A stretch of DNA of 64,000 nucleotides from Haloactinopolyspora alba (GTDB lineage Bacteria; Actinomycetota; Actinomycetes; Jiangellales; Jiangellaceae): NCBI RefSeq assembly GCF_003014555.1, contig NZ_PYGE01000002.1:372001-436000 (forward strand). The letters are read 5' to 3'. The notes beneath the pieces were generated by a model that saw only the letters and a list, made by a program, of their open reading frames with translations, searched no databases and had not been told where the DNA came from. The translations under genes and the position numbers were made by a program. The first letter of the stretch is position 1. Every line of letters starts with the position of its first letter. Below, piece by piece: positions 20,666 to 63,300 of this stretch.

Positions 20666-24067
<3,402 letters not shown>

Positions 24068-29961: not shown

Positions 29962-30026
29962 CTATTAAGTGAAACATATCTGGCTTGCGTCGGTGCGTCG
30001 TGCCATAGTTTTGCAACGAACCGGCA

Positions 30027-36312: not shown

Positions 36313-37182
36313 ATGAACAGGGCGCTGGGCGTCAACACCTGGGTGTGGACGTCACCGCTGACCGACACCAGCCTGGCGGCGCTGGCGCCGCGGATCGCGG
36401 ACTGGGGCTTCGACGTCATCGAGCTCCCGGTCGAGAACCCGGGCGACTGGGATCCGCAGCGCGCGTCCGCCCTGCTCGACGAGCTCGGCCTGAAGGCGTG
36501 CGTCGTGCTGGTCATGGGTGAGGGGCGCGAGCTGGTCGCCACGGACCCGGGAACGGTCGCCACCACCCGCGACTACCTGCGCCATGTCGTGGACGTGGCG
36601 CAGGCGGTGGGGTCGCCGGTCATCGCCGGCCCCGCGTACGCCTCGGTGGGCCGGACGTGGCGGATGGACGACATCGAGCGCCGGCAGCGCTACGCCGAGT
36701 TGCGCGACGGTCTCGGCCCCGTGGTCGAGCACGCCGCGGACGCCGGCGTGACCGTCGCCGTCGAGCCGTTGAACCGATACGAGACCAGCCTGATCAACAC
36801 CGTCGAGCAGGGTCTGGACGCCCTGGACGGGCTACCGCCCGCGGCGTGCGGTCTGGCGCTGGACGTGTACCACATGAACATCGAGGAACGTGACATCGCC
36901 GAGGCGATCACCCGCGCAGGGGACCGGATCGCCCATGTCCAGGTCTGCGCGAACGATCGAGGGGCGCCGGGCGCGGACCATCTGGACTGGACCGGCATCC
37001 TGGCCGCTCTCGACCGGGCCGGCTACGAGGGTCCCCTGGCCATCGAGTCGTTCACCGCCGAGAACGCCACCATCGCCACCGCCGCGTCGATCTGGCGGCC
37101 GCTCGCGGCCAACCAGGACGCGATCGCCGTGGACGGGCTGTCGTTCCTGCGGGACGTGGAGGAGGTGGTCGGCCAGCCGTAG
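36313..37182 (+). CDS. Sugar phosphate isomerase/epimerase-type TIM barrel protein
   Basis: This 289-residue protein resembles xylose-isomerase-like TIM barrels of the D-tagatose/L-ribulose 3-epimerase group. Putative metal ligands are Glu151 (VAVEPLNRYETSL), Asp184 (LALDVYHMNIEE), His near 210 (RIAHVQVCANDRGAPG) and Glu near 245 (PLAIESFTAEN). Such enzymes epimerise or isomerise ketoses at C3/C4, and related ones act on keto-sugars formed by Gfo/Idh/MocA enzymes. The start ATG 36313 follows GAGGAGCTGAGCCG. It lies between the importer and the secreted ThuA proteins. Confidence 0.86.
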   Translation: MNRALGVNTWVWTSPLTDTSLAALAPRIADWGFDVIELPVENPGDWDPQRASALLDELGLKACVVLVMGEGRELVATDPGTVATTRDYLRHVVDVAQAVGSPVIAGPAYASVGRTWRMDDIERRQRYAELRDGLGPVVEHAADAGVTVAVEPLNRYETSLINTVEQGLDALDGLPPAACGLALDVYHMNIEERDIAEAITRAGDRIAHVQVCANDRGAPGADHLDWTGILAALDRAGYEGPLAIESFTAENATIATAASIWRPLAANQDAIAVDGLSFLRDVEEVVGQP

Positions 37183-37259: not shown

Positions 37260-40200
37260 ATGTACGTGGCTCTACGCCAGCGGTGGGGACGGCTGTTAGC
37301 CGTAGCCCTCACCGTCGCACTCGCATTCTCACTGCTCAACGCCTTACCGTCGCAGGCGCAGGAGGAACCGCCTGCCGCGGAGGACGCCCACGTCCTGATC
37401 TTCACGAAGACGGCGGCGTACCGGCACACCGAGGCCATCAACCAGGGCGTCCCCGTCCTCGAGACGTCGCTGGCCGACGCCGGCATCACGTCCGAGCACA
37501 CCGAGGACTCGACGATCTTCAACGACGAGGACCTCGCCCGGTTCGACGCGCTGATCATGTTCCAGGCCTCCGGTGACCCGTGGACCGCCGACCAGAAGGC
37601 GGCCCTGGAGCGGTACCAGCAGGGCGGCGGCGGCATCGTCGCGGTTCACAACGCCGCGGACATGCGCGGTGGCTACCAGTGGTGGGACGACCTGATCGGG
37701 TCGTTGATGCCCGGGCACGCCGCCACCGGGACCAGCCCGGGCCAGCCCGGCACGGTCCGCGTCGAGGACCAGACCCACCCGTCCACCCAGCACCTGCCGC
37801 AACGGTGGGACCGCGCCGACGAGTGGTACAACTTCTCCACCAACGTCCGTGGTGACGCGCACGTGCTGGCGACCATGGACGAGACCACGTACGACCCCGG
37901 CAGCAACGCCATGGGCTACGACCACCCGATCTCGTGGTGCAAGCCGTACGACGGCGGCCGCGCGTGGGTGACGGCCATGGGTCACTTCGGTGCGCACTAC
38001 ACCGAGGAGCCGGCGTTCGTGCAGCACATCATCGGCGGTGTCGAGTGGGCCGCCGGTATCGCCGAGGGTGACTGCGGCGGTACGAAGTGGGACCAGTTCG
38101 AGCGGGTCTCCCTGGACGAGAACACGAGCGCGCCGTTCGCGATCGACGTCGCCCCCGACGGGCGGGTGTTCTTCACCGAGCTGGTTCGCGGGCAGATCCG
38201 CGTGTACGACCCGGAGACCCGGACCACCGACACGGCCATCACCATCCCGGTGTACTCCGGCGGTGAGGACGGCCTGCTCGGCATCGCCCTGGACCCGAAC
38301 TTCGCGGACAACGGCTACCTGTACGTCTACTACTCGCCGGCCAGCGAGGACGACACCGACCCGGCGAACTTCTACAACCGGCTGTCCCGGTTCACGGTCG
38401 GCGCGGACTCGCAGATCGACCCCGCGTCCGAGTCCGTGATGCTGGAGGTGCCGGCACGGCGGCTGCCCGACGAGCCGGGGCACACCGGCGGCGGCCTGGA
38501 GTTCGGCCCGCAGGGCAACCTCTACCTGGGCGTCGGCGACGACGTGAACCCGCACTCCGAGCCGTCCGGTGGCTACGCCCCGCTGTCCGAGCGTGAGGGC
38601 ACGTTCCACGACGCCCGCGCGACGTCGGCGAACACGAACGACCTGCGCGGCAAGCTGCTGCGGATCACGCCGCAGCCGGACGGCAGTTACACGATCCCCG
38701 AGGGCAACATGTTCCCGGAGTCCGAGGACACCCAGGACAAGACCCGCCCGGAGATCTACGCGATGGGCTTCCGTAACCCGTTCCGTTTCACCATCGACGA
38801 CGAGACCGGTGCGATCGGCATGGCCGACTACTCGCCGGACAACGGCACCGACAACCCGGACCGCGGCCCCGCCGGTATCGCGGAGTGGAACCTCATCACC
38901 GAGCCCGGCTTCTACGGCTGGCCGCTGTGCATGGGCAACAACGAGCCGTTCAAGGACGTCGACTACACCACCGACCCGGTGACCGTCGGCGACTCGTTCG
39001 ACTGCTCCAACCCGGTCAACGACTCGGTGCGCAACACCGGGCTGACCAACCTGCCGGCGGCGAAGCCGGCCGACATGTGGTACGGCTACCAGCGTTCGTC
39101 GGTCCCCGAGGTCATTCCGCAGGGCGGCGGCCTGGCGCCGATGGGCGGGCCGTTCTACAACTTCGACCCGGCGCTGGAGTCCGACACCAAGTTCCCGGAG
39201 TCGTACGACGGCAAGGCCTTCTTCTACGAGTGGTCGCGCAACAAGATGTACACACTCATCCCGAACGGTGACACCACGGAACTGGAGAAGGTGAACCCGT
39301 TCCTGCCGGAACAGGAGTTCCTCGCGCCGATCGACTCGGAGTTCGGGCCTGAGGGCTCGATGTACGTGCTCGACTGGGGCGGCGGCTTCGGCCGCGACAA
39401 CCCGAACTCCGGGCTGCACCGCATCGACTACGTCTCCGGGTCGCGATCACCGGAGGCGAACATCACCGCCACACCGGACTCCGGGCACGCCCCGCTGGAG
39501 GTCTCGTTCGACGGCAGCTCCAGCACCGACCCGGAGGAGGAGCAGCTCACCTACGAGTGGGACTTCACCAGTGACGGCACGGTGGACGCGACCGGGACGA
39601 CGGCGACGCACACCTACGACGCGAACGGTGTGTACGACGCCCGGCTGACGGTCACCGACCCGCACGGCAAGACGGGGACGACCACGGTGCCGATCACGGT
39701 CGGCAACACCCGCCCGGAGGTGGACTTCGGGTTGCCGCCGAACGGCTCGTTCTTCGAGTTCGGTGACGACATTCCGTGGGATCTGACCGTCACCGACGCC
39801 GAGGACGAGTCCATCGCCGACGCCGACGTCGTCGTCCAGCCGGCACTCGGGCACAACGGGCACGCTCACTCGGGCGCTCCGTTGTCCGGCCGGACCGGCA
39901 CCGCGACGACCTCACTGGGCGGTGGCCACGGCGAGGACATGAACGTGTTCTACGTCCTGGACGCCCGATACTCCGACAGCGGAGGCGAAGGGGACATCCC
40001 GTCGCTGACGGGGTCCGACACCACGCTGCTGTTCCCGAAGAAGCGGGAGGCGGAGTTCTACGACGAGGCACAGGGCGTCACCGCGTCGAGTTCGCGTGAC
40101 GTCGAGGGCCACGGCGACGCGATCACCGGATCGGACGGTGCGTGGGCGTCGTATGCGCCGGTCAACCTGTACAACGTCGACGGCCTGACGGTGCGCGCCG

Positions 40201-43200
40201 CCGCGCCGGACGGCGGCACCATCGAGTTGCGCAAGGGCGCTCCCGACGGTGAGCTGCTGGGGACCGCCGAGATCCCGGCCACCGGGCCGACCGGCTACAC
40301 CGACGTCACCGTGCCAGTAGCCAACACAGGCACGGACACGCCTGATTCCTTCACGCTGTACGCGGTGTTCCCCGGGGCCGGCGAGCGGAGGCTGAACTTC
40401 GTCGAGGCCGAGGGCAAGGGCGCGGCGACGACGTCCAAGCCGGAGGTGGCGATCACCTCTCCGGCGGCCGACGACCAGCTGGAGCCGGGCGCGATCGAGG
40501 TCACCGCCGAGGCCAGCGACGAGGAGAACGCGGTCACTCAGGTCGAGTTCTTCGCCGACGGCGAGTCGATCGGCGTGGACGACACCGCGCCGTACGCCAC
40601 GACGTGGGACGTCACCGAGAAGCGGCGCTACGACCTCACCGCCGTGGCGACGAACGACAACGGCGACAGCACCACGTCGCGCATCGTCCGGGTCGAGGTC
40701 GGTGACCTGTACGGGAACTGGCTGACCTACAGCAACGCCGGTGCGACGTTCGATCGCCCGGACACGGACACCTGGATCGTCAACTCCGGCGGCGGGAACA
40801 TGTGGCAGGGCACCGACGAGTACGGTGCGGCCTACCTGCCGGCGGCCGCCGGTGAGCAGTGGACGGCGACGGTGCGCATCGACGGCCAGTCCGGGACCGA
40901 GGACTCGGCCAAGGCCGGGCTGATCGTGCGCAACGACGTCACCCAGCCGGGGTCGTCAGCGGGCTACGCGGCCCTGGTCATGCGGGCAGGGCTCGAGTTC
41001 GAGTGGCTGCGTGACACCGACGGCAACGGCGAGCTCGACGCGAGTGACGGCGGGGGCACGAACGGGCACCCGGCGTGGGTTCGCCTCGTCCGCGACGGCG
41101 ACCAGTACACCGCGTACTGGAGCAAGGACGGCCAGGAGTTCACCGCGATCGGTGACCCGGTCACGCTGCCCGGTGCCACGTCGGCGCAGGACATCGGCGT
41201 CGCGGTCACCGCGCACAGCTCGACCGAGACGAACCGTGCCCAGTTCAGCGGGTTCACGCTGACCAACGAGGTGTGGACGCCGGAACCGGAACCGGACCCG
41301 GACCCCGAGCCGGGACCGGTCTGCGAGAAGGGCCAGTCCGACCAGTTCGACGGGGCGGAGCTGGACACCAGCCGGTGGAGCACGGTGCGCAACGCCGAGG
41401 GGATGCCCGCCACCGTCGCCGACGGCGCGCTGACGCTGCCGGTGACCGACGGCGACATCAACGAGGCCGCCACCGGGCCGATCAGCTACGTGGGCCAGCC
41501 GGCCCGCGACGGGGAGTGGACGGTCGAGACCCAGGTGTCGATCGAGCACACCCGCGAGTGGCAGCACGCCGGGCTCCTGTTGCACGGCACCGACGACGAC
41601 TACGTCAAGGTGGCGTTCACCAGGAACGCGTCCGGCGGCCGGCTGTTGGAGTTCCAGACCGAGTCGGGCGGTTCGCGGACGTGGCACGACAACGTGACAC
41701 TGCCGGCGGACTTCCCGTCCACCGCACACCTGCGTCTGAGCAGTGACGGTTCGCAGCTCACCGCGGCGTACTCCGCCGATGGTGAAACCTGGACCGATCT
41801 GGCGGGCGCGGCGTCGGTCATCGATGGCGCGACCATCGGGCTGATGGCGGCCGGCGACACCGGCACGCCGGAGGTCGACGCGGTGTTCGAGCACTTCACC
41901 GTCACCCCGGACACCGACGACGATGGTGTTCGTGCGCCGTCGGACGAGTTCGACGGTGACGCTGTCGACGGGTGCCGCTGGAACTCGGTGGTCCGTTACG
42001 ACTCGTCGGCGGTCTCCGTGGCCGACGGCCAGCTGCGCATCCAGACCCAGCCCGGCGACATCAACGGTGGCGCCAACGAGGATCCGAGCAACTTCATCCT
42101 GCAGGATCTTCCGGCGGGCGACTGGACCGTCGAGACCCAGCTGACGCCGACGATGCTGCACCAGTGGCAGCTCGCCGGCCTGATGGTGTACGGCGACGAC
42201 GACAACTACGTGAAGTTCGACGTGGCCGCGCGGAACACGCCGGACACCGCGACCGATCTCGGAGCCGAGCTGGTCTCCGAGCAGGGCGGCGACTTCGGCG
42301 CCGGCGGCAACCGGCAGCTCGACGTCGCGGAGTCGACCGAGAGCGGCAAGTACCAGCTGCGCCTGACGAAGTCCGGAACCACCTACAGCGCCGAGATCAG
42401 CGGCGACGGGGTGAACTGGACGTCGCTGGGCGAGCCGGTGACCAACGACGCGGAGCTGGACTCCTTCGGCCTGATGGCCATCGGACCCCAGCAGCAGGAG
42501 CCGGTCACGGTCGGCTTCGACTACTTCCGGGTCACCAGCGACGGCGGCGAGGACACCACGGCGCCGGCCGTCACCGCACGGCAGCTGGGCGAGGTGACCG
42601 GTGAGTTGGTCAAGATCCCGGGGCGCACCGACCTGGACGTGACCGGTGAGGTGACGATGGTCCGCTCGTCGGACAACGGCACCGCGGTGGACGTCCGCGT
42701 CGAGGGCCTCGACCCGGGGTCGACCTACCCGTCGCACCTGCATGCCGGTACCTGCGCGGAAGGCGGCGGGCACTACATGCACGACTCGGACGGTTCGCCG
42801 GAGCCGCCGAACGAGATCTGGCTGTCGTCGTCGGCGGACCCGAAGGGTGAGCTGGAGGCGAACAGCCAGGGCGTCGCCGTCGGATCCGGCTCGGCGAGCT
42901 GGGTCGCGCGTCCGGTCGAGCTGGGCGTCATGGTGCACGACTCGGAGTTCCCGGGGCTGCCCATCGCCTGCGCCGACCTGGATCAGGGCGGACCGCAGAC
43001 GCTCGAGCTGACCGCCGACGACGGCTCCGGCTCGGGTGTGGACTCGATCGAGTACCGGTTGGCCGGTGAGGAGCCGACCAGCTACGACGGGCCGGTCACG
43101 TTCGACGAGCCCGGCGACTACACGGTCGAGTACCGGGCGACGGACGCGGCGGGCAACGCCGGACAGTGGCAGTCGCTGTCGTTCACCGTGGCCCCTGACG

Positions 43201-43964
43201 ACACCACCCCGCCGACCGTGGACGTGCAGGTCGACCCGGCCGAGCCGACCGGCTCGAACGGGTGGCACGTCGACCCGGTCACCGTCACCGCGACGGCGGC
43301 CGACGACGGCGGCGATGTCACCGTCGAGTACCGGGTCGGTGACGGCGAGTGGACGGCGTACGACGGCCCGGTCGAGGTCGCCGACGACGGCGTGCACGAG
43401 CTGGCGTTCCGTGGCACCGACGAGGCCGGCAACGTCTCCGAGCCGGTTTCGGCGTCGGTCCGGCTGGACGCGACGGCGCCCGAGGTGACGGTGTCCGGTG
43501 TCGAGGACGGCGGATCCTACGATCTCGGCGCCGAGGTCGAGCTCGGCGCCGCGGCCGAGGACGCGGTGTCCGGCGTGGCCGGTGTCGAGCTCCGGCTCGA
43601 CGGTGAGCCGGTGGACAACCCGTCCACCGTCACGCCGCTGGCCGGTGCGCACACGCTGACCGCGGTGGGCACCGACGAGGCCGGCAACACCACCGAGGTC
43701 ACGGTCGAGTTCACGACCTTCGTGAACTACGAGCTGGCGCGGTCGCTGGTCCAGCAGCTGCACGACGACGGGCTGGTGACCACGTCCGAGGCCAACCGGA
43801 TGCTCGGGCATCTGCGGGCGGCCGAGGAGACCGCCGAACACCGTCGGGCCCGGCAGGCCGAGGCCGCGCTCGACAGGTTCGCCGCAGTGGCCGAGGGAGT
43901 CGCGGACGAGGAGGTGAGAGCGCAGCTGCTCGCGGTCGCGGACGCGCTGCGGGCGCAGCTGTAG
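37260..43964 (+). CDS. Giant secreted ThuA / PQQ-type sugar dehydrogenase / multi-domain protein (2234 aa)
   Basis: Exported (signal peptide 1-37, ending LPSQAQE). Approximate order: ThuA-like domain 40-270 (VLIFTKTAAYRH, DEWYNF, HPISWC); soluble glucose-dehydrogenase-like six-bladed propeller 280-730 with GHTGGGLEFGPQGNLYLG near 405 and GFRNPFRFTID near 503, the His and Arg-Asn signatures of PQQ enzymes. Next are PKD 731-815, a domain with LGHNGHAH 816-925, CBM6-like 925-1055, Ig-like 1060-1147, and three ConA-like (DUF1349/GH43-C2 type) domains 1150-1340, 1355-1550 and 1560-1760. A CHRD/SodC-like domain follows at 1768-1909 (HLHAGTCAEGGGHYMHD), then Ig/OmpL47-type domains 1918-2154 and a C-terminal helical FIMAH-like module. 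GGAGG precedes ATG 37260. Extracellular glycoside oxidation and polysaccharide binding are inferred. Confidence 0.85.
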   Translation: MYVALRQRWGRLLAVALTVALAFSLLNALPSQAQEEPPAAEDAHVLIFTKTAAYRHTEAINQGVPVLETSLADAGITSEHTEDSTIFNDEDLARFDALIMFQASGDPWTADQKAALERYQQGGGGIVAVHNAADMRGGYQWWDDLIGSLMPGHAATGTSPGQPGTVRVEDQTHPSTQHLPQRWDRADEWYNFSTNVRGDAHVLATMDETTYDPGSNAMGYDHPISWCKPYDGGRAWVTAMGHFGAHYTEEPAFVQHIIGGVEWAAGIAEGDCGGTKWDQFERVSLDENTSAPFAIDVAPDGRVFFTELVRGQIRVYDPETRTTDTAITIPVYSGGEDGLLGIALDPNFADNGYLYVYYSPASEDDTDPANFYNRLSRFTVGADSQIDPASESVMLEVPARRLPDEPGHTGGGLEFGPQGNLYLGVGDDVNPHSEPSGGYAPLSEREGTFHDARATSANTNDLRGKLLRITPQPDGSYTIPEGNMFPESEDTQDKTRPEIYAMGFRNPFRFTIDDETGAIGMADYSPDNGTDNPDRGPAGIAEWNLITEPGFYGWPLCMGNNEPFKDVDYTTDPVTVGDSFDCSNPVNDSVRNTGLTNLPAAKPADMWYGYQRSSVPEVIPQGGGLAPMGGPFYNFDPALESDTKFPESYDGKAFFYEWSRNKMYTLIPNGDTTELEKVNPFLPEQEFLAPIDSEFGPEGSMYVLDWGGGFGRDNPNSGLHRIDYVSGSRSPEANITATPDSGHAPLEVSFDGSSSTDPEEEQLTYEWDFTSDGTVDATGTTATHTYDANGVYDARLTVTDPHGKTGTTTVPITVGNTRPEVDFGLPPNGSFFEFGDDIPWDLTVTDAEDESIADADVVVQPALGHNGHAHSGAPLSGRTGTATTSLGGGHGEDMNVFYVLDARYSDSGGEGDIPSLTGSDTTLLFPKKREAEFYDEAQGVTASSSRDVEGHGDAITGSDGAWASYAPVNLYNVDGLTVRAAAPDGGTIELRKGAPDGELLGTAEIPATGPTGYTDVTVPVANTGTDTPDSFTLYAVFPGAGERRLNFVEAEGKGAATTSKPEVAITSPAADDQLEPGAIEVTAEASDEENAVTQVEFFADGESIGVDDTAPYATTWDVTEKRRYDLTAVATNDNGDSTTSRIVRVEVGDLYGNWLTYSNAGATFDRPDTDTWIVNSGGGNMWQGTDEYGAAYLPAAAGEQWTATVRIDGQSGTEDSAKAGLIVRNDVTQPGSSAGYAALVMRAGLEFEWLRDTDGNGELDASDGGGTNGHPAWVRLVRDGDQYTAYWSKDGQEFTAIGDPVTLPGATSAQDIGVAVTAHSSTETNRAQFSGFTLTNEVWTPEPEPDPDPEPGPVCEKGQSDQFDGAELDTSRWSTVRNAEGMPATVADGALTLPVTDGDINEAATGPISYVGQPARDGEWTVETQVSIEHTREWQHAGLLLHGTDDDYVKVAFTRNASGGRLLEFQTESGGSRTWHDNVTLPADFPSTAHLRLSSDGSQLTAAYSADGETWTDLAGAASVIDGATIGLMAAGDTGTPEVDAVFEHFTVTPDTDDDGVRAPSDEFDGDAVDGCRWNSVVRYDSSAVSVADGQLRIQTQPGDINGGANEDPSNFILQDLPAGDWTVETQLTPTMLHQWQLAGLMVYGDDDNYVKFDVAARNTPDTATDLGAELVSEQGGDFGAGGNRQLDVAESTESGKYQLRLTKSGTTYSAEISGDGVNWTSLGEPVTNDAELDSFGLMAIGPQQQEPVTVGFDYFRVTSDGGEDTTAPAVTARQLGEVTGELVKIPGRTDLDVTGEVTMVRSSDNGTAVDVRVEGLDPGSTYPSHLHAGTCAEGGGHYMHDSDGSPEPPNEIWLSSSADPKGELEANSQGVAVGSGSASWVARPVELGVMVHDSEFPGLPIACADLDQGGPQTLELTADDGSGSGVDSIEYRLAGEEPTSYDGPVTFDEPGDYTVEYRATDAAGNAGQWQSLSFTVAPDDTTPPTVDVQVDPAEPTGSNGWHVDPVTVTATAADDGGDVTVEYRVGDGEWTAYDGPVEVADDGVHELAFRGTDEAGNVSEPVSASVRLDATAPEVTVSGVEDGGSYDLGAEVELGAAAEDAVSGVAGVELRLDGEPVDNPSTVTPLAGAHTLTAVGTDEAGNTTEVTVEFTTFVNYELARSLVQQLHDDGLVTTSEANRMLGHLRAAEETAEHRRARQAEAALDRFAAVAEGVADEEVRAQLLAVADALRAQL

Positions 43965-44033: not shown

Positions 44034-44094
44034 CACAACACAGGGCCGGGAGATCCAGGGGCGCCGTGTCAGTTCCACGACAAGAGGAGGCGTT

Positions 44095-47000
44095 GTGAGA
44101 GACGATCCGAGACGGGTCCGAACGAGATCGTTACGACGTGGTGCCGCTGTCGTCCTGGGCGCGGCCGTGCTGACCCCGCTGGGTCTGAGCGCGACCGCCG
44201 CACCGGCGCCATTGCCCGCGGCCGACGAACCGGCGTCCGGTGACGCCGACACGTCGGCGGTGGAGCCGATGCACGCGGAGTTCGACGTCCTGGTCTTCAG
44301 CAAGACCGCCGGCTTCCGGCACTCGTCCATTCCGGACGGGATCGCCGCCATCGAGACACTGGGGGAGGCGAACCACTTCGGCGTGACGGCCACCGAGGAC
44401 GCGTCCGCCTTCACGACCGAGAACCTGGCGCAGTACGAGGCCGTCGTCTGGCTGTCCACCACCGGCGACGTCCTGAACGAGCAGCAGCAGGCCGCGTTCG
44501 AGGACTACATCGCCTCCGGGGGCGGGTACGTCGGCATCCACGCGGCCGCCGACACCGAGTACGACTGGCCCTGGTACCACGGGCTGGTGGGCGCGTACTT
44601 CGACTCGCACCCGCAGATCCAGCAGGCCGCCGTGGACGTCACCGACTCCGTGCACCCGTCGACCGCGCACCTGCCGCGGCGCTGGGAGCGCACCGACGAG
44701 TGGTACAACTACCAGACCAACCCGCGCGGCGACGTGCACGTGCTGGCCGAGCTCGACGAGTCGAGCTATGACGCCGGCGACGGAGCCATGGGGGCCGACC
44801 ATCCCATCGCCTGGTGTCACGACTACGCCGGCGGACGCGCCTGGTACACCGGCGGCGGGCACACGTCCGACTCGTTCACCAACGAGCCGGCGTTCACCGA
44901 GCACGTGCTCGGGGGCATCATGACCGCCGCCGGGCAGGCCGAGGCCGACTGCGGCGCGACCGTCGACGCCAACTTCGACCAGGTGACGCTGGCGAAGGGC
45001 CAGGAGGAGATGGGCGAGCCGATGGGCGTCGCCGTGCTGCCCGACGGCAGCGCGCTGCACACCGCGCGCTCCGGTCAGGTCTACTACACCGCGGCCGCCG
45101 GCGAGACCAGCCTGGCTGCAGAGGTGCCGGTGTACGACTTCCGCGAGGACGGGATGCAGGGCATCGCGCTCGATCCGAACTTCGAGGAGAACCGCTGGGT
45201 CTACCTCTACTATTCGCCGGTGCTCGGCACACCGGAGGGCGAGGTGGCGCACAGCAGCCTCGACCCGAGCGTGTGGGAGGCCTACGAGGGCCACAACAAC
45301 CTGTCCCGGTTCAAGTTCGTCGACGGCCAGCTGGACCTGGAATCCGAGCAGGTCGTCATGCAGGTGCCGCAGGACCGCGGCAACTGCTGTCACCACGGCG
45401 GCGACATCGACTTCGACGCCGACGGCAACCTGTACCTGTCGACGGGTGACGACTCCGACCCGTTCGAGTCCAACGGGTACTCTCCGATCGACGACCGCGC
45501 CGACCGGGCGCCGCAGTTCGACGCGCGCCGCACCTCCGGCAACACCAACGACCTGCGCGGGAAGATCCTGCGCATCTCGGTGAACGCGGACGGTTCGTAC
45601 ACCGTCCCCGAGGGCAACATGTTCCCGGAGTCCGCGGACACCGAGGACAAGACCCGTCCGGAGATCTACGCGATGGGCTTCCGCAACCCGTTCCGCATCA
45701 GCGTCGACGAGCCGACCGGCGACGTCTGGGTCGGCGACTACGGGCCGGACTCCGGCAGCGCCGGGCGCTACGGCCCCGCCGGGCAGGTCGAGTTCAACCG
45801 CATCACCGAACCGGGCAACTTCGGCTGGCCGTTCTGCACCGGGAAGAACACCCCGGAGGAGACCTACGTCGAACGCGAGTTCACCGCGTACTACGGCGAG
45901 GACCCGAACACCGGCGAGCCGGACCCGAACGACGGCATGAACGATCCGATCGGGGAGAAGTTCGACTGCGCCGGCGGCCCGACGAACGACTCGGTGCTCA
46001 ACACCGGCCTGTCGACGCTGCCTCCGGCGGAGCCGGCCTGGATCCCGTACAACGGCGGATCGGTGGCGGAGTTCGGCAGCGGCAGCGAGTCGCCGATGGG
46101 CGGTCCCGTCTACCGTTACGACCCGCAGTTGGAGTCGCAGACGAAGTTCCCCGAGTACTACGACGGGCAGTTCTTCGGCTACGAGTTCGGCCGGCAGTGG
46201 ATCAAGAACATCAGCGTCGCCGAGGACGGATCGCCGCAGCACATCGGCGCCTTCTCGGACGGCGTCGTGGACAACACCCAGCTGATGGACCTGGAGTTCG
46301 GTCCGCAGGGCTCGCTCTACGTGCTCGACTACGGCACCGGGTTCTTCGGCGGGGACGAGAACTCCGCGCTGTACCGCGTCGACTACGTCAAGGGGACACG
46401 TTCGCCGGAGGCTATGGCCTCGGCGAGCCCGACCTCGGGGCAGGCCCCGCTGACGGTGGAGTTCACCTCCGAGGGGTCGAACGACCCGGACCCGGGTGAC
46501 ACGCTCAGCTACGCCTGGGACTTCGACGGGGACGGCACCACCGACTCCACCGAGCAGGCGGCGTCGTACACCTACACCGAGAACGGCGAGTACACCGCGA
46601 CGCTGACGGTCACCGACCAGACCGGCAACGAGGGCGTCGCCACGGCGCACATCGTCGTCGGCAACACCGCGCCGGTGGTCGAGGTCGTCCAGCCGGCGAA
46701 CGGGCAGACGTTCTCGTTCGGCGACGAGATCGACTACGAGGTGTCCGTCACCGACCCGGACGGCATGCCCGTCGACTGCTCGAAGGTCGAGGTGACGTTC
46801 GCGCTGGGGCACGACCAGCACACGCACGGCGGCGAGACCGTCAACGGCTGCTCCGGCACCCTGACCACCGGAGCGGACGCCTCGCACGGCACCGACGACA
46901 ACATCTTCGGGCTGATCCTGGCCGAGTACACCGACACGCCTCCGAACTCCGACTCCGCGCCGGTGACCGGGTCGACGAGGATCGTCCTGCAGCCGAAGCA

Positions 47001-48828
47001 CCGGCAGGCCGAGCACTTCTCGAACCAGAGCGGTGTGCAGGTCGTCAACCATGGTGCGGCCGAGGGCGGTGCCCGCATCGGCTACATCGACGACGGCGAC
47101 TGGGTCTCGTTCGAGCCGTGGAACCTCACCGGTGTCGAGTCGGTCGGGATGCGCGTGTCCGCCGGCGGTCCCGGCGGCACCGTCGAGGTGCGCATGGGCG
47201 CTCCGGACGGGCCGCTGGCCGCGACCGTTCCGGTGCCGCACACCGGCAGCCCGGACAACTACGTCCAGGTGCCGCCGGTGGCGGTGGACGACCCGGGCGG
47301 CACCGACGAGCTGTTCCTGGTGTTCCGCGGTGACGGCGGCGGGCTGATGGACATCGACGCGATGAGGTTCAGCTCCGAGCAGGCCGCCTGCCCCGACCCG
47401 GACGCGCCGGTCGAGCCGGACGACGAGTTCGACGGCGACGGTCTGGACCGGTGCCGGTGGTCGAGCATCCTGCGGCCGGACCTGGCGCACTACGAGGTTG
47501 CCGGCGGGCAGCTGCGCATCGACGCGCTCGAGGGTGACATGCACGGTGGCAACACCAGTGCCAAGAACGTCGTCCTGCAGGACGTCGCCGACCCGGCCGC
47601 CGGGTTCGAGGTGTCGACACAGCTGTCGCTGCCTGCCGGCGGCGACTACGAGCAGGCCGGTCTGATGGTGCACTCCGGTGACCAGAACTTCGCCAAGGCG
47701 GTTCTGATCAACATCCCGAACGTGGGGTGGCGGTTCGAGTTCGGCCAGACCACCAACGGTTCAGCCGTGTTCGATGCCGCACTCGACCGCTCCGGCGAGC
47801 TGCCGGAGGGCATCACCGAGAACGCCCACGTCAAGATCGTCAGCGACGGTCACGTGCTGACCGCGTACTGGTCGGCCGACGGCGAGGAGTGGACACGGTT
47901 CGGCCGGCCGCGCCCGCTGTCGCAGATGCCGAACCCGAAGGTCGGTCTGGCGGCGTTCAACGGCGAGGGCCAGACGGCGGCGTTCGAGCACTTCCGGATG
48001 GCGGAGTACACGCCGCCGCAGTGCGAGGCGACTCAGCCGGAGCCGGGCTACCGCAGCCTGTTCGACGGCACCGAGGCCAGCCTCGAGGGCTGGCAGATGG
48101 CCGGTCCCGGCGGGTTCGCCTACACCGGGTGTGATCTGTTCTCGTACGGTGGCATGGGCCTGTACTGGTACGACGAGGCCTTCGAGTCGTACAGCCTGAA
48201 GCTCGACTGGAAGATGCTCGGCGACGACAACTCCGGTGTGTTCGTCGGCTTCCCCGACCCGGGCGACGACCCGTGGGTGGCGGTGAACAAGGGTCACGAG
48301 ATCCAGATCGACGCGACCGACGATCCCACCCACACCACCGGGTCGATCTACGGGTTCCAAGGCGCTGACCAGGAAGCCCGGGACGCAGCGCTGAACCCGC
48401 CGGGGGAGTGGAACTCGTACGAGCTCCTCGTGCAAGGCGACCGGATCCAGGTGTTCCTGAACGGTGTGAAGATCAACGATTACACCGACACCGACCCGGC
48501 CCGGATGAACGCGCCGAGCTACATCGGGCTCCAGAACCACGGCGGCGCGGACGACGTGTACTTCCGCGACGTCCGGATTCAGGAGTTCACGTTCGCCAAC
48601 GCCACCACCCTGGTCGACGACTACTACCAGGCGGGAGCGCTGAACCGGCGGCAGGAGCGTCAGGTGGTGAAGCATCTCGAGGTCGCCGAGCGGCTGTCCG
48701 GTCGTGGTGTGACCGAGCAGGCCGGTGAGGCGCTCGACCGGTACGCGGACGTGGCCTCGGAGGTCGAGGACGAGCAGGTCCGCACCGAGCTCCTCGACAT
48801 GGGTGAGGCGCTGCGAGAGCAGCTGTGA
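44095..48828 (+). CDS. Secreted ThuA / PQQ-type dehydrogenase / 3-keto-disaccharide hydrolase fusion (1577 aa)
   Basis: Secretion signal 1-37 with a basic start (RDDPRRVRTRSLRR). Approximate domains: ThuA-like 62-282 (VLVFSKTAGFRH, GIHAAADTEYDWPWY, HPIAWC); sugar-dehydrogenase propeller 291-769 (CCHHGGDIDFDADGNLYLS near 432, GFRNPFRISVD near 527). Then PKD 772-857, the LGHDQHTH-containing domain 858-964, CBM6-like 969-1095 and ConA-like 1106-1305. DUF1080/3-keto-disaccharide hydrolase 1312-1497 is recognised by YRSLFDGTEASLEGWQ, LDWKMLGDDNSGVFVGFP and GHEIQIDATDDPTHTTGSIY. A FIMAH-like helical module ends the protein. GTG 44095 has GAGGAGG 5 bp upstream. Oxidation of a disaccharide and cleavage of its 3-keto form could occur on one polypeptide; this is inferred from the domains. 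Confidence 0.88.
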   Translation: MRDDPRRVRTRSLRRGAAVVLGAAVLTPLGLSATAAPAPLPAADEPASGDADTSAVEPMHAEFDVLVFSKTAGFRHSSIPDGIAAIETLGEANHFGVTATEDASAFTTENLAQYEAVVWLSTTGDVLNEQQQAAFEDYIASGGGYVGIHAAADTEYDWPWYHGLVGAYFDSHPQIQQAAVDVTDSVHPSTAHLPRRWERTDEWYNYQTNPRGDVHVLAELDESSYDAGDGAMGADHPIAWCHDYAGGRAWYTGGGHTSDSFTNEPAFTEHVLGGIMTAAGQAEADCGATVDANFDQVTLAKGQEEMGEPMGVAVLPDGSALHTARSGQVYYTAAAGETSLAAEVPVYDFREDGMQGIALDPNFEENRWVYLYYSPVLGTPEGEVAHSSLDPSVWEAYEGHNNLSRFKFVDGQLDLESEQVVMQVPQDRGNCCHHGGDIDFDADGNLYLSTGDDSDPFESNGYSPIDDRADRAPQFDARRTSGNTNDLRGKILRISVNADGSYTVPEGNMFPESADTEDKTRPEIYAMGFRNPFRISVDEPTGDVWVGDYGPDSGSAGRYGPAGQVEFNRITEPGNFGWPFCTGKNTPEETYVEREFTAYYGEDPNTGEPDPNDGMNDPIGEKFDCAGGPTNDSVLNTGLSTLPPAEPAWIPYNGGSVAEFGSGSESPMGGPVYRYDPQLESQTKFPEYYDGQFFGYEFGRQWIKNISVAEDGSPQHIGAFSDGVVDNTQLMDLEFGPQGSLYVLDYGTGFFGGDENSALYRVDYVKGTRSPEAMASASPTSGQAPLTVEFTSEGSNDPDPGDTLSYAWDFDGDGTTDSTEQAASYTYTENGEYTATLTVTDQTGNEGVATAHIVVGNTAPVVEVVQPANGQTFSFGDEIDYEVSVTDPDGMPVDCSKVEVTFALGHDQHTHGGETVNGCSGTLTTGADASHGTDDNIFGLILAEYTDTPPNSDSAPVTGSTRIVLQPKHRQAEHFSNQSGVQVVNHGAAEGGARIGYIDDGDWVSFEPWNLTGVESVGMRVSAGGPGGTVEVRMGAPDGPLAATVPVPHTGSPDNYVQVPPVAVDDPGGTDELFLVFRGDGGGLMDIDAMRFSSEQAACPDPDAPVEPDDEFDGDGLDRCRWSSILRPDLAHYEVAGGQLRIDALEGDMHGGNTSAKNVVLQDVADPAAGFEVSTQLSLPAGGDYEQAGLMVHSGDQNFAKAVLINIPNVGWRFEFGQTTNGSAVFDAALDRSGELPEGITENAHVKIVSDGHVLTAYWSADGEEWTRFGRPRPLSQMPNPKVGLAAFNGEGQTAAFEHFRMAEYTPPQCEATQPEPGYRSLFDGTEASLEGWQMAGPGGFAYTGCDLFSYGGMGLYWYDEAFESYSLKLDWKMLGDDNSGVFVGFPDPGDDPWVAVNKGHEIQIDATDDPTHTTGSIYGFQGADQEARDAALNPPGEWNSYELLVQGDRIQVFLNGVKINDYTDTDPARMNAPSYIGLQNHGGADDVYFRDVRIQEFTFANATTLVDDYYQAGALNRRQERQVVKHLEVAERLSGRGVTEQAGEALDRYADVASEVEDEQVRTELLDMGEALREQL

Positions 48829-51124: not shown

Positions 51125-51189
51125 TTGACACTTCTGAAACATGCCGTTTGTCTGTGTGTCATACAAACTCCAGGCGATCGGAGGCACCC
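51125..51189 (+). promoter_or_regulatory. Putative promoter region of the ThuA-less dehydrogenase gene
   Basis: TTGACA at 51125-51130 is a clear -35-like box about 60 bp before the start. The -10 is uncertain (TTGTCT at 51148 or CATACA at 51160). CTGAAACATG overlaps the spacer and resembles GTGAAACATA in the ROK-1 promoter gap (29969-29978). GGAGG at 51179-51183 is the ribosome site. Confidence 0.35.
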
Positions 51190-53322
51190 ATGCGGAGACT
51201 CATCGGGATGGCCGGAGGGGCGCTCGTGGCGTCCACTCTCGTTGCCATGCCGTCCGCGACGGCCCAGCAGGCCGGCCCCACGGACAGCCCGGCACCCCCA
51301 CCGGACGAACAGTTCCAGAAGGTCACGTTGAACGACACCCCCGGTGAGCCGATGGACCTCGCGGTGCTGCCGGACGGACGTGTGCTGCACACCACCCGCC
51401 CGGGTGAGGTGTGGCTGCACGACCCGGACACCGGGCTGAACACGCTGGCCGCCGAGCTCGACGTCTACCAGCACGACGAGGAGGGGCTGCAGAGCATCGC
51501 GCTCGACCCCGGCTTCAACGGCACCACCAACACCGGGGTCTATCTCTACTACTCGCCGCCGATGGACACGCCCGTGGACGACCCGGCGACGCCGGACGTG
51601 AACGAAGGCGACGCCCCGCTGTTCGGCGAACCGGCCGACTTCGAGCCGTTCGAGGGCGTGATCCGGCTGTCGCGGTTCGAGCTGGACGGCGACGAGCTGG
51701 ACCTGTCGACCGAACAGCAGATTCTCGACGTTCCGGTGGACCGCGGCATCTGCTGTCACGTGGGCGGCGACATCGTCTTCGACAGCGACGGGAACCTGTA
51801 CCTGTCCACCGGCGACGACACCAACCCGTTCGAGTCCGACGGGTACGCACCGATCGACGAGCGCGCGGACCGCAACCCGGCGTTCGACGCGCAGCGCAGC
51901 TCCGCGAACACCAACGACCTGCGCGGCAAGGTGCTGCGTATCGACCCGGAGCCGGACGGTTCGTACTCGATCCCGGAGGGCAACCTGTTCGAGCCCGGCA
52001 CCGAGGGCACCCGCCCGGAGATCTACGCCATGGGGCTGCGTAACCCGTTCCGGATCGAGATCGACCCGCACGACGACACCCTGTACGTGGCCGACTACTC
52101 CCCGGACGCCGGCAGCGCCGACCCGGAGCGCGGGCCGGCGGGCACCGGCAAATGGCTGAGCGTGGAGGAGCCGGGGAATTACGGCTGGCCGTACTGCATC
52201 ACCTCGGAGCTGCCGTACGTCGACTACGACTTCGCCACCGAGACGTCGGGTGAGCCGTTCGACTGCTCGTCGCCGGTGAACGAGTCGCCGCACAACACCG
52301 GGCTCACCGAACTGCCGCCGGTGACACCGGCGGAGGTGTGGTACTCCTACGACGAGTCGTCGGAGTTCCCCGAGCTGGGCTCGGGCGGGATCGGCCCGAT
52401 GGCCGGCCCGGCGTACGACTTCGACGTGCGCGACACCCGCGGCCGGGCGCCGGTGGCGTGGCCGGAGTACTACGACGGCGTCCCCTTGTTCTACGAGTGG
52501 ACCCGCGACTACGTGAAGGCGTTCCATCTCGACGACGACGGCGACGTCGCCAGCATCGAGGACGTGATCCCCTCGATCGTCACGAACCACCCGATGGACA
52601 TGGAGTTCGGTCCGAACGGCGCGCTGTACATCCTGGAGTACGGAGCCGGGTACTTCGCCGAGAATCCGGGGGCGCAGCTGGCGCGGGTCGACTACATCGG
52701 ACCCGGCGGCAACCACACCCCGCAGCCGGTGGCCGCGGCCGACCCGTCCGCGGGCCAGGCACCGCTGACTGTGCAGTTCTCCAGTGAGGGGACGACGGAC
52801 GCCGAAGGTGACCGGCTGATCTACGAGTGGGACTTCGACGCCGACGGCACGGTCGACTCCCGCGAGCAGAACCCGACGCACACCTACGGCGAGAACGGGC
52901 TGTACCGCGCCACCCTGAAGGTCACCGACATCGGCGGCCGCGACCGGCGCAAGTCCGCCTCGGCCGAGGTCGAGGTGGTCGTCGGGAACGACCGGCCGGT
53001 GGTCGAGTTCGTCACGCCGACGGACGGGGACTCCTTCTCGTTCGGCGACACGGTCGAGTACGAGGTCCAGGTGACCGACGACCAGCCGTTCGACTGCGAG
53101 GCGGTGACGGTGACCTACATCCTCGGTCACAACGACCACGGCCACCCGCAGACCACCGCCAACGGCTGCACGGGAACCATCGAGACGACCGAGCCCAGCG
53201 GGCACGACCCGGAGGTCGACGACCTGCACGGGGTCTTCGACGCGACCTACACCGACCCGGGCGGTGACGGGCTGCCGCCGCTGACCGGTCGGGACCGCGT
53301 GGTCCTCGAGCCGGCCGGCTGA
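51190..53322 (+). CDS. Secreted PQQ-type sugar dehydrogenase with PKD domain, no ThuA (710 aa)
   Basis: The signal peptide covers 1-30 (ALVASTLVAMPSATAQQ). The propeller (about 41-510) has PMDLAVLPDGRVLHTTRPGEVWL, CCHVGGDIVFDSDGNLYLSTGDD near 195 and GLRNPFRIEIDP near 282, as expected for soluble aldose dehydrogenases using PQQ. A PKD domain (about 515-600) and the LGHNDHGH-containing domain (600-705) end the protein. There is no ThuA, carbohydrate-binding or helical module, so this is the minimal form of the four related proteins. ATG 51190 has GGAGG 6 bp upstream. PQQ biosynthesis genes are absent from the window. Confidence 0.88.
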   Translation: MRRLIGMAGGALVASTLVAMPSATAQQAGPTDSPAPPPDEQFQKVTLNDTPGEPMDLAVLPDGRVLHTTRPGEVWLHDPDTGLNTLAAELDVYQHDEEGLQSIALDPGFNGTTNTGVYLYYSPPMDTPVDDPATPDVNEGDAPLFGEPADFEPFEGVIRLSRFELDGDELDLSTEQQILDVPVDRGICCHVGGDIVFDSDGNLYLSTGDDTNPFESDGYAPIDERADRNPAFDAQRSSANTNDLRGKVLRIDPEPDGSYSIPEGNLFEPGTEGTRPEIYAMGLRNPFRIEIDPHDDTLYVADYSPDAGSADPERGPAGTGKWLSVEEPGNYGWPYCITSELPYVDYDFATETSGEPFDCSSPVNESPHNTGLTELPPVTPAEVWYSYDESSEFPELGSGGIGPMAGPAYDFDVRDTRGRAPVAWPEYYDGVPLFYEWTRDYVKAFHLDDDGDVASIEDVIPSIVTNHPMDMEFGPNGALYILEYGAGYFAENPGAQLARVDYIGPGGNHTPQPVAAADPSAGQAPLTVQFSSEGTTDAEGDRLIYEWDFDADGTVDSREQNPTHTYGENGLYRATLKVTDIGGRDRRKSASAEVEVVVGNDRPVVEFVTPTDGDSFSFGDTVEYEVQVTDDQPFDCEAVTVTYILGHNDHGHPQTTANGCTGTIETTEPSGHDPEVDDLHGVFDATYTDPGGDGLPPLTGRDRVVLEPAG

Positions 53323-58931: not shown

Positions 58932-60176
58932 ATGACCCTAGATGGCAAGCCGGCGCTGGGGATCGGCATGGTGGGCTACTCGTTCATGGGAGTCGCGCAC
59001 TCCCATGCCTGGCGCGACGCGTCGAGCTTCTTCGACGTGGCGCTCGTGCCGCGGTTGCGAGTGCTCGCCGGCCGTAACGAGCAGGCCGCGCGTGACGTGG
59101 CCTCCCGGTTCGGCTGGGAGAGCGTCGTACCCGACTGGCAGAGCCTGGTGCACCGCACGGACGTCGACCTGGTCGACGTGTGCACGCCCGGCGACACGCA
59201 CGCCGAGATCGCTATCGCGGCGCTCGAGGCCGGCAAGCACGTGCTGTGCGAGAAGCCGCTGGCGAACACCGTCGCGGAGGCCGAGGCGATGACGCGGGCG
59301 GCCGACCGAGCCGCCGAGTCCGGCGTGCGGAGCATGGTGGGCTTCACCTACCGCCGGGTCCCGGCCATCGCGCTGGCGCGGCGGCTCGTCGCGGACGGGA
59401 CGGTCGGCGAGATCCGGCACGTGCGCGCCCAGTACCTGCAGGACTGGGCGAGCGACCCGGACGTCCCGCTGAACTGGCGGTTGCAGAAGGAGCGTGCCGG
59501 TTCGGGCGCGCTCGGCGACATCGGTGCGCACATCGTCGACCTCACGCAGTTCATCACCGGCGAGCGCATCACCGGTGTCAGCGCCATGCTCGACACGTTC
59601 GTGACCGAGCGTCCGGTGGCCGAGGGGGACTCCGTGTCCACGCCGAACAGTCTGTCCGGCGCGGCCGACGCACCTTCGGACAAACTGTCGCCGGCCTCAG
59701 CGGCGACGAGTGCCTCGGCCGGTCGCGGACAGGTCACCGTCGACGACGCAGCGACGTTCCTGGCGCGGTTCACCGGCGGCGCGATGGCGACGTTCGAGGC
59801 GACCAGGTTCGCCTCCGGCCGGAAGAACTCGATCCGGATCGAGATCAACGGGTCCGCCGGCAGCCTCGCGTTCGATTTCGAGGACATGAACGTGCTGCAC
59901 GTCCACGACCACACCGAGGACCCGGCCCGAGGCGGGTTCCGGCGGGTGCTGGTCACCGAGTCCGACCATCCGTACCTCGCGGCCTGGTGGCCGCCGGGCC
60001 ACCTGCTCGGTTACGAGCACTCGTTCACGCACCAGGCGGTCGACCTGGTGACGGCCATCGCCGACGGCGCCGACCCGTGGCCGTCGTTCGCCGACGGTCT
60101 CGCGGTGCAGCGGGTGCTGGCCGCGGTGGAGGCCAGCGCCGCCGGCAAGAGCGTATGGACGGAGGTGCCCACCTGA
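58932..60176 (+). CDS. Gfo/Idh/MocA family NAD(P)-dependent sugar dehydrogenase (second)
   Basis: This 414-residue oxidoreductase has a Rossmann start (GIGMVGYSFMGVAHSHAW) and CEKPLANT near residue 110. The substrate domain contains VRAQYLQDWASDPDVPLNWRLQKERAGSGALGDIGAHIVDLTQF, with the GDIGxHxxD catalytic motif near 195-202. An insertion of about 45 residues (225-270, Ser/Ala-rich) is absent from the first copy. It lies between the second importer and another ThuA-dehydrogenase protein. Its residues suggest a ThuB-like or inositol/glucoside dehydrogenase; specificity is not determined. Confidence 0.9.
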   Translation: MTLDGKPALGIGMVGYSFMGVAHSHAWRDASSFFDVALVPRLRVLAGRNEQAARDVASRFGWESVVPDWQSLVHRTDVDLVDVCTPGDTHAEIAIAALEAGKHVLCEKPLANTVAEAEAMTRAADRAAESGVRSMVGFTYRRVPAIALARRLVADGTVGEIRHVRAQYLQDWASDPDVPLNWRLQKERAGSGALGDIGAHIVDLTQFITGERITGVSAMLDTFVTERPVAEGDSVSTPNSLSGAADAPSDKLSPASAATSASAGRGQVTVDDAATFLARFTGGAMATFEATRFASGRKNSIRIEINGSAGSLAFDFEDMNVLHVHDHTEDPARGGFRRVLVTESDHPYLAAWWPPGHLLGYEHSFTHQAVDLVTAIADGADPWPSFADGLAVQRVLAAVEASAAGKSVWTEVPT

Positions 60177-60315
60177 CCCCGAGCCGGACGTGGGGCGCCA
60201 CTCCGGAACACCGACGACATCCGATGACCATCGACAGGGCCGAGAGCAGACCCCGGGGGGTTCACCCCGGTGCGGGGCGCACGTGTACGTACCCGACAGT
60301 CGTGAGGAGACTGTG

Positions 60316-63300
60316 GTGAGACAACTCTCGCAACGCGCTCGCCGGACGGCGAGGCGACTCGTGGCCGGCAGCCTGGCTGCCGGAGTCGCGGTACCTGTGG
60401 GTATCGCCGCTCTCGCGCCCACCGCCACCGCCCATCCGGGCCACGGCGGCTACTCGGTCCTGGTGTTCTCGAAGACGGAGGGGTTCCGGCACGGGTCCAT
60501 CCCGGACGGGGTCGCCGCCATCGAACAGCTGGGAGCAGAGCACGACTTCCAGGTCGACGCGACCGAGGACTCCGCGGCGTTCACCGACGACAACCTGGCG
60601 CAGTACGACGTCGTGGTGTGGCTGTCCACGACCGGTGACGTGCTCAACGCCGACCAGCAGGCGGCCTTCGAACGCTACATCGCCGACGGAGGTGGCTACG
60701 CGGGCATCCACTCCGCGTCCGACACCGAGTACGACTGGGCGTGGTACGGCGACCTGGTCGGCGCGTACTTCGCCGGCCACCCGGCGCAGCAGGACGCGAC
60801 GGTGAAGGTCGAGGATCCGGCGCACCCGTCGACCCAGCACCTCGACCCCGCCTGGGACCGCTTCGACGAGTGGTACAACTACCAGGCCAACCCCCGCGGC
60901 GACGTGCACGTGCTCGCGTCGCTGGACGAGTCGTCGTACGACGCGGGTGGCGGCGCCATGGGCAGCGACCACCCGATCAGCTGGTGCCAGAACTTCGACG
61001 GCGGCCGCTCCTGGTACACCGGCATGGGGCACACCGTCGACTCGTTCAGCGAGCCGGAGTTCCTCGAGCACATCCTGGGTGGCATCGAGACCGCGGCGGG
61101 GGTGACGCCGGCGAACTGTGCGGCGAGCCAGCCGGGCAGCTTCGAGAAGGTCACGCTGGACGACACCACGAGCAACCCGATGGAGCTGGCGGTCGCCGGC
61201 GACGGCCGGGTGTTCTACATCGAGCGCAACGGCGAGGTGCGACTGATCCGTCCCGACGGGTCCGCGACGACGGTCGGCGCGGTGGACGTCTACACCGGTC
61301 AGGAGTTCGGGCTGACGGGTATCGCGCTCGACCCGGACTTCGCCACGAACAACTGGATTTACCTGACCTACGCGCCGGCCGGTGACCAGGCCGTCGACCG
61401 GGTGTCCCGGTTCACGCTGAACGGCGAGACGCTGGACCCGGCGAGCGAGCAGGTGGTTCTGGAGTTCCCGACGAACCGGGACGAGTGCTGCCACGCCGGT
61501 GGCGCCCTGGAGTTCGACGGCAACGGTGACCTGTACCTCGCCACCGGGGACAACACGAACCCGTTCTCGTCGCAAGGGTACGCGCCCATCGACGAGCAGC
61601 CGGGGCGCGAGCTGTGGGACGCGCAGCGCACGTCGGCGAACTCGAACAGCCTGAGCGGCAAGGTGCTGCGGATCCACCCGGAGGACGACGGCTCGTACAC
61701 GATCCCCGAGGGCAACCTGTTCCCGGAGTCCGAGGACACGCAGGACAAGACCCGTCCGGAGATCTACGCGATGGGCTTCCGCAACCCGTTCCGTATCGGC
61801 ATCGATCCGGCGACGGACAAGCTGATGGTCGGCGACTACGGCCCGGACGCCAACAGCGCGAACCCCGATCGCGGCCCGGACGGCCGGGTGGAGTGGAACA
61901 TCGTGGACGAGCCCGGCTTCTACGGCTGGCCGTACTGCGTCGGCGACAACACGCCGTACATCGACTACGACTTCGCGACCGGCGAGTCCGGCGAGGCGTT
62001 CGACTGCGCCGGCGGCCCGGTGAACGACTCACCGAACAACACCGGCATCACCCAGCTCCCGCCCGCGGTCGAGGCGGAGGTCTGGTACGGCTATTCGCCC
62101 AACCCGCAGTTCCCCGAGATCGGCGGGGGCGGCGCGCCGATGGCCGGCGGCGTCTACCGCTACGACCCGTCCGTCGAGTCCGACCGGCAGTGGCCGGCCT
62201 ACTGGGACGGCAAGGCCGTCTTCGCCGAGTGGAACCAGGGCAACCTGTACAGCTTCCAGCTCGACGGCGCCGGCAGCGCGGTCACCGACATCAACGCGCT
62301 GTTCCCGGACATGCAGTTCCTGCGTCCGCACGCGATGGAGTGGGGCCCGGACGGCGCGCTGTACCTGATCGAGTGGGGCAGCGGCTTCGGTGGTGACAAC
62401 GCCGACTCCGGCGTCTACCGCATCGACCACGTCCAGGGTGAGCGGGCACCGATCGCACGCATCGATGCCGGTCCGTTGTCCGGGCCGACCCCGCTCGAGG
62501 TGAACTTCGACGCCTCGGGGTCGATCGACCCGGAGGCCACGACGCTGACGTACGAGTGGGACTTCGACGGCGACGGGACCGTCGACTCCACCGAACCGAC
62601 CGTCAGCCACACCTACACCGAACCCGGCGACTACACGGTGGCGCTGACGGTCACCGACGCCGACGGGCAGCAGGACATCGCGAACGTCGAGGTGACGGCC
62701 GGTAACACCGCACCCGAGATCACCGTTACCGCGCCCGCCGACGGCGGGTTCTTCGAGTTCGGCGACACCATCGCCTACGAGGTCAGTGTCACCGACGCCG
62801 AGGACGGCGAGGGCGTGTGCGACCGGATCGTCACCCAGCCGGGGCTCGGGCACAACGACCACTCGCACGAGTACGAGGAGAACTTCGGCTGCACGGGCAC
62901 CTTCGAACTGCCCGGCGACGAGGGCCACACCGGCGCGAACATCTTCGGCACCGTCACGGTGACCTACACCGACGACGGTGCTCCCGGTGTCAGCCCGCTC
63001 ACCAGCCGGGAGGTGCTGGTCCTGCAGCCCAAGCGCCGTCAGGCCGAGCACTTCGACGAGACGGGACGGCTGGCGGGGTCCGACGCGGGCGGCGACCCCG
63101 GTGTTCAGACCGAGGAGACCGGCGACACCGCCGGCGGCGGTCAGAACGTCGGGTTCATCGAGGACGGCGACTGGTGGTCGTGGGACCCGATGAACCTCAC
63201 CGCCATCGACGACATCACGCTGCGGGCCGCGACCCCCAACATCGGCGCGACCGTGGAGGTGCGTACCGGTGCGCCGGACGGCCCGACGGTGGCGACCATC

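Follow-up and report, generated by a model that had tools for sequence, protein, structure and literature searches.

The question raised by this locus is which chemistry is served by a single 1577-aa protein that carries a ThuA domain, a sugar dehydrogenase propeller (GSDH) and a DUF1080 (3-keto-disaccharide hydrolase) domain together with glycan-binding modules. The gene lies in a window of 64,000 nt (C2:372001-436000), which is the whole stretch of DNA analysed, from a soil actinobacterium. Its genome comprises 5.5 Mb on 49 contigs, and among named organisms Jiangella and Phytoactinopolyspora are closest to it. The answer preferred here, to which about an even chance is given, is that a bound glycan undergoes oxidation and then elimination and hydration outside the cell, the candidate C3 dehydrogenase being ThuA-GSDH.

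Gene and domain organization

The GC contents of the ORF at the three codon positions (0.67, 0.47 and 0.94) are typical of a real gene, and the ORF is thus considered to be coding. Domains were called as Pfam matches over curated cut-offs (Table 1). They bear out the claim of an earlier note on this DNA that ThuA, a sugar dehydrogenase and a 3-keto-disaccharide hydrolase are present on one polypeptide, in combination with CBM6-like and ConA-like modules. The Pfam match of GSDH covers residues 308-588 (9.2e-35). The N-terminus, judged by eye, begins with several Arg, continues with hydrophobic residues and ends rich in Ala; it looks like a signal peptide, and the protein is predicted to be secreted. 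Orthologues of identical architecture, with 76-80% identity, are found in Jiangella asiatica, Phytoactinopolyspora halotolerans and one MAG. Since the architecture is repeated in these three other genomes, a chance fusion or an assembly artefact was ruled out.

Table 1. Features of the 1577-aa protein and of its surroundings in the window
Feature	Position	Strand	Basis or remark
1577-aa protein ThuA-GSDH-PKD-CBM6-ConA-DUF1080-FIMAH	44095..48828	+	ORF, Pfam
Ribosome-binding site AGGAGG	44085..44090	+	Sequence; 4 bases before GTG start
Signal-peptide-like N-terminus, residues 1-37	44095..44205	+	By eye
ThuA domain, residues 65-275	44287..44919	+	Pfam PF06283, 8.4e-81, 271.6 bits
GSDH beta-propeller, residues 290-760	44962..46374	+	Pfam PF07995, fold, alignment
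PKD domain, residues 770-854	46402..46656	+	Pfam
CBM6 carbohydrate-binding module, residues 971-1093	47005..47373	+	Pfam, 1.9e-27
ConA-like module (DUF1349/GH43_C2), residues 1110-1303	47422..48003	+	Pfam
DUF1080/3-keto-disaccharide hydrolase domain, residues 1318-1496	48046..48582	+	Pfam 3keto-disac_hyd, 3.5e-39
Codon of His1482	48538..48540	+	Aligned position has Asn in place of His in 9fbe
FIMAH domain, residues 1501-1574	48595..48816	+	Pfam
Single-domain ThuA protein, 234 aa	19689..20393	+	No secretion signal seen
Second Gfo/Idh/MocA oxidoreductase	29638..31215	+	True start within ORF
AP_endonuc_2 sugar isomerase-like protein, cytoplasmic	36313..37182	+	Adjoins ThuA-GSDH tandem
Tandem upstream paralogue, 2234 aa, ThuA-GSDH-PKD-CBM6-DUF1349 repeats-FIMAH	37260..43964	+	Pfam; without DUF1080
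GSDH-PKD protein, 724 aa, downstream	51148..53322	+	Without ThuA
Gfo/Idh/MocA oxidoreductase, cytoplasmic	58932..60176	+	
Third ThuA-GSDH protein	60313..64000	+	Extends beyond window end; without DUF1080; start codon approximate

The island starts after the housekeeping genes dus, pyruvate phosphate dikinase and dnaG with the single-domain ThuA gene, which adjoins a GH2 beta-galactosidase gene (19689-24067). Two sets of ribose-type sugar ABC transporter genes are part of it, as are ROK regulators, a pair of Gfo/Idh/MocA genes and one AP_endonuc_2 gene. With such neighbours, the earlier view that no other single clue to the island's chemistry is as strong as the 1577-aa protein appears fair. 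Relatives of the Gfo/Idh/MocA protein encoded at 58932-60176 directly precede ThuA-GSDH genes elsewhere.

In the whole genome 10 ThuA, 11 GSDH and six strong DUF1080 matches were found. A paralogue at C2:475k has the order ThuA-GSDH-PKD-CBM6-PKD-ConA-DUF1080, and one on contig C23 (L118:2570-5908) has ThuA-GSDH fused to AP_endonuc_2 in one ORF. The paralogue on contig C7 (L115:950-5683) lacks ThuA and is arranged as GSDH-ConA-DUF1080-DUF1080 with a cupredoxin-like domain. On contig C8, ThuA is interrupted by an F5/8 type C domain and followed by GSDH and PKD; a DUF1080-like stretch, recognized by eye and without a Pfam call, begins there at the contig end.

The DUF1080 domain

The match to PF06439 reaches 135.2 bits (cut-off 26.8) and spans positions 1-187 of the 187 in the profile. 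The structure model (pLDDT 91.8) has as its top fold match 9fbe (Z 21.6, 178 aligned residues, rmsd 2.7), whose PDB title reads '3-keto-glycoside eliminase/hydratase', in complex with 2-hydroxy-3-keto-glucal; 3imm, 3s5q, 8v31, 3osd (BT2157), 8rr2 and 8tda follow. Over 227 aligned residues, 9fbe and 8rr2 differ solely by a change of His to Asn in the motif QDHG. Because this is the only difference and stands in the glucal-bound structure, we infer that the His is catalytic and was changed in 9fbe to hold the glucal. It is matched by His1482, which is kept in 44 of 46 relatives; Asn takes its place in the DUF1080 domains of Actinomadura and in the first of the two that the C7 protein carries. 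Judged from alignment and model, the domain of the 1577-aa protein is probably active. The possibility that catalytic residues of the family are missing, raised in the earlier note, does not apply, as the likely catalytic His is retained. What the same note called a hydrolase acting on the oxidised product does match a family of 3-keto-glycoside enzymes; the step itself would be elimination and hydration, with hydrolysis as the net result, and 'eliminase/hydratase' is the better name since the solved matching relatives are eliminase/hydratases.

BT2157 (3osd, 8rr2, 8tda, 9fbe) and Alistipes AL2 (8v31) have the whole-domain fold and the motifs NSG, E-x-Q, GEWN and Q-[DN]-H-G in common with the domain described here. 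They are separate single-domain proteins, whereas here DUF1080 is one of seven modules and is about 25% identical to them. It is also shorter by about 25-30 residues, as the long loop that precedes the last strands in BT2157 is absent. This bears on membership in the BT2157 subgroup and not in PF06439, because 3imm and 3s5q are also shorter.

It is very improbable that the domain is a plain glycanase or a CBM66-like sugar-binding module with no part in 3-keto sugar chemistry. CBM66, the next fold match (Z 16.9), lies nearly five Z units farther from the model than the eliminase/hydratases, and the catalytic-type His is conserved, against which stand the DUF1080 proteins of Thermogutta, proposed as xanthan backbone glycosidases with an overlap with CBM66 (PMC5673643), and the many relatives of the 1577-aa protein that have a ConA-like module without DUF1080.

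The ThuA-GSDH unit

ThuA and GSDH likely form a rigid pair of fixed arrangement, as they were modelled together with a pLDDT of 92.7 and a pTM of 0.92. A fold match of ThuA is 4jqs (Z 24.8). The propeller matches PQQ aldose dehydrogenases with Z 35-40 (39.8 for 2ism) and the Hedgehog-interacting protein HHIP with Z 25-30. With PQQ aldose sugar dehydrogenases (2ism, 3a9g, 2g8s, 3das) and sGDH it has in common six blades, a catalytic-type His, an Arg-Asn pair and Gly-Pro; the His (His433), Arg-Asn (Arg530, Asn531) and Pro are kept in 112/112 aligned sequences. The clade differs from these enzymes in that its GSDH is joined to ThuA, PKD or CBM modules, in an extra conserved Cys pair and in the R-x-R motif of the last blade, the second Arg of which is missing in all 112 GSDH domains. 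Gln729 and Met731 occupy the positions of sGDH Arg406 and Arg408, which contact PQQ in that enzyme. The Arg408 equivalent is kept in sGDH, E. coli Asd, 2ism, 3a9g, 3das and the standalone GSDH of the source genome itself.

No PqqE over the cut-off was found in the source genome by profile search, and only one of 148 genomes of the class has one. A working quinone site in the GSDH of the 1577-aa protein is doubtful, because the Arg408 equivalent is absent from all 112 domains and PqqE from the genome itself and from 147 of the 148. The host could scavenge PQQ, which is conceivable because 3das, an aldose dehydrogenase from Streptomyces coelicolor, is PQQ-bound. A CxxCH haem site for electrons is not present in the 1577-aa protein.

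The known GSDH enzymes, sGDH and Asd, oxidise C1 of aldoses. The production of 3-keto sugars by GSDH, as assumed in the earlier note, is for this reason not supported by the family and can only be inferred. An ordinary aldose dehydrogenase would use scavenged PQQ to turn reducing ends into lactones by oxidation at C1. DUF1080 would then act on 3-keto glycosides made by other enzymes, and a common need for one anchored glycan would be the sole reason for the shared chain. This is unlikely on balance, but has to be taken seriously: the fold matches to PQQ aldose dehydrogenases, the invariant His, Arg-Asn and Pro and the PQQ-bound actinobacterial relative 3das agree with it, in contrast to the second Arg, never found in the clade yet kept in sGDH, Asd and the other enzymes listed with them, and to the near absence of PqqE from the class.

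Still less probable is a propeller that serves for binding or as a scaffold, like the Hedgehog-interacting protein, with the 3-keto substrate made by an exported Gfo/Idh/MocA enzyme or arriving from other organisms. An invariant catalytic-type His and Arg-Asn in 112 sequences would be unusual for a mere scaffold, close as the fold of HHIP is and although one Arg of the PQQ site has been lost in the clade.

Distribution in related genomes

A GTDB genome scan found 343 relatives, and 80 loci were kept; ThuA-GSDH proteins were counted with home-made profiles seeded from the domains of the source genome. Among 85 such proteins of related genomes, DUF1080 is present in 33 and absent in 52, the latter number counting against the preferred explanation of oxidation coupled to elimination. 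The core ThuA-GSDH-PKD-CBM6 is nearly constant, and the C-terminus consists of DUF1080, ConA-like modules, FIMAH or nothing. On a quick GSDH tree, in which gains and losses are pooled and some placements are uncertain owing to long branches, the presence of DUF1080 changes at least nine times among 99 rows, so that the domain has been gained or lost repeatedly.

In the sample of 148 genomes of the class, the ThuA-GSDH query matches in 36 and DUF1080 in 30, and all of the latter (30/30) also encode ThuA/GSDH proteins (Fisher p 9e-26, uncorrected for kinship, which confounds the co-occurrence). Thirteen loci from such actinobacterial genomes were compared. Five have GSDH-PKD-CBM6-ThuA-DUF1080 as one ORF, two of them with extra modules, and six have a GSDH-PKD-CBM6 gene with an adjacent separate ThuA-DUF1080 gene; in one (L141) the ThuA that precedes DUF1080 is spread over two reading frames, and the last combines ThuA with CBM6 and lacks DUF1080. 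Full-length matches are 60-70% (ThuA), 56-59% (GSDH) and 57-64% (DUF1080) identical to the modules of the 1577-aa protein. In single chains GSDH and DUF1080 are spaced by 174-868 aa, in either order.

The 30/30 co-occurrence, the permuted fusions and the adjacent genes argue for ThuA, GSDH and DUF1080 being functional partners, and to this extent the earlier note was right to treat them as belonging together; neither the architecture nor the partnership is an artefact, and both are widespread. Its further suggestion, that an unstable intermediate is channeled between active sites that face each other, is unlikely, because the spacing, the order and even the gene boundaries vary, with the modules in part on separate proteins; facing sites as a requirement are ruled out by the same variation. 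The several arrangements of the trio are also more than shared anchoring requires if GSDH is an ordinary aldose dehydrogenase, and even with GSDH acting at C1 the 30/30 link of DUF1080 to ThuA/GSDH calls for an explanation. A library search of the literature on 3-keto-glycosides and DUF1080 returned no match mentioning ThuA.

Neighbouring oxidoreductase and isomerase genes

The neighbourhood seen in the island recurs in related loci: of the 33 DUF1080-bearing ThuA-GSDH proteins, 25 have a Gfo/Idh gene within 2.5 kb. No export signal was seen in the adjacent Gfo/Idh genes of related loci. In a crude export scan of Gfo/Idh genes, which covered part of 23 N-termini, one Gfo/Idh/MocA protein had a twin-Arg signal; it is encoded on contig C20 (L160, C20:58796-59173), far from the ThuA-GSDH genes. 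As a rival candidate for C3 oxidation outside the cell, it could be an alternative maker of the 3-keto group and would suit a scaffold role of GSDH, against which its distance and the lack of a signal in the adjacent genes speak; that role is rated as quite unlikely.

AP_endonuc_2 genes occur within 2.5 kb of 14/33 ThuA-GSDH proteins with DUF1080 and of 22/52 without it, and the two families as mutually exclusive alternatives were thus not seen. Several of the adjacent AP_endonuc_2 proteins, which belong to a sugar isomerase family, carry twin-Arg signals (L036, L042, L050, L055, L056, L057, L105, L108, L111 and L112) and are probably exported.

Comparison with known pathways and proposed function

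The rhizobial thuAB trehalose genes tie ThuA to 3-keto sugar chemistry. There, ThuA is a single cytoplasmic domain of the same family, whereas in the 1577-aa protein it is predicted to be secreted and packed on GSDH. In the lactose pathway of Caulobacter, DUF1080 partners LacABC (PMC9007349); there too an oxidiser and a DUF1080 protein act outside the cytoplasm on one substrate. The oxidiser of Caulobacter is the three-component LacABC enzyme, and the candidate here is GSDH plus ThuA. As the LacC-type Gluconate_2-dh3 subunit had no match in the source genome, with the Caulobacter control positive, no LacABC system was found there.

Oxidation, beta-elimination, hydration and reduction, as proposed here, also make up the GlycDH-OGE-HYD-Gfo pathway of Agrobacterium (PMC10628242) and the levoglucosan pathway LgdABC (PMC10066097). 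Published pathways of this type combine Gfo/Idh oxidoreductases with eliminases of the AP_endonuc_2 fold family, namely AtOGE (PMC10628242) and LgdB1 (PMC10066097), and both families are found in the island; the AP_endonuc_2 domain fused in the C23 paralogue is of the same fold family as these beta-eliminases. The 3-keto oxidiser of those pathways is a dedicated glycoside or levoglucosan dehydrogenase, in contrast to the secreted ThuA-GSDH with fused DUF1080 that is the candidate here.

C3 oxidation by ThuA-GSDH is plausible. The 1577-aa protein would be secreted, bind glycans and deglycosylate them oxidatively in the extracellular space. In it ThuA and GSDH, as one rigid oxidising unit, would place a keto group on a glycosyl residue, with C3 as the most likely position. 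DUF1080, tethered via the PKD, CBM6 and ConA-like modules, would then cleave the glycosidic bond by beta-elimination and hydrate the 2-hydroxy-3-keto-glucal. The steps would be coupled by tethering and shared substrate binding, with no channel between facing active sites. For the released keto sugar, the ABC transporters encoded nearby are the putative route into the cytoplasm, where the Gfo/Idh/MocA and AP_endonuc_2 enzymes may reduce or isomerise it.

A bolder reading, possible but on the unlikely side, is that ThuA-GSDH represents a new class of secreted glycoside 3-dehydrogenases, in which a PQQ-type propeller has shifted its specificity from C1 to C3 and acts with ThuA. Together with DUF1080 of the same chain it would then account for oxidation, elimination and hydration of polymeric glycans in the extracellular space, and would supply the oxidising partner so far missing for DUF1080 across actinobacteria.

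The recurrence of the same partners across actinobacteria points to an uncharacterised extracellular glycan breakdown. If this is true, many actinobacteria have a route of extracellular glycan cleavage that is independent of classical glycoside hydrolases, and a single polypeptide allows direct tests of what ThuA does and of which oxidiser supplies DUF1080.

Two minor observations concern electron transfer. The C-terminal cupredoxin-like domain of the C7 paralogue (PF00127, 24.5 bits) is a possible built-in electron acceptor. On contig C8 a multicopper oxidase gene (L119:3571-4728), a candidate electron sink, adjoins the protein of the ThuA-F5/8-GSDH type, and profile matches suggest a similar multicopper oxidase neighbour in two Amycolatopsis and in Halopolyspora (L041, L042 and L057).
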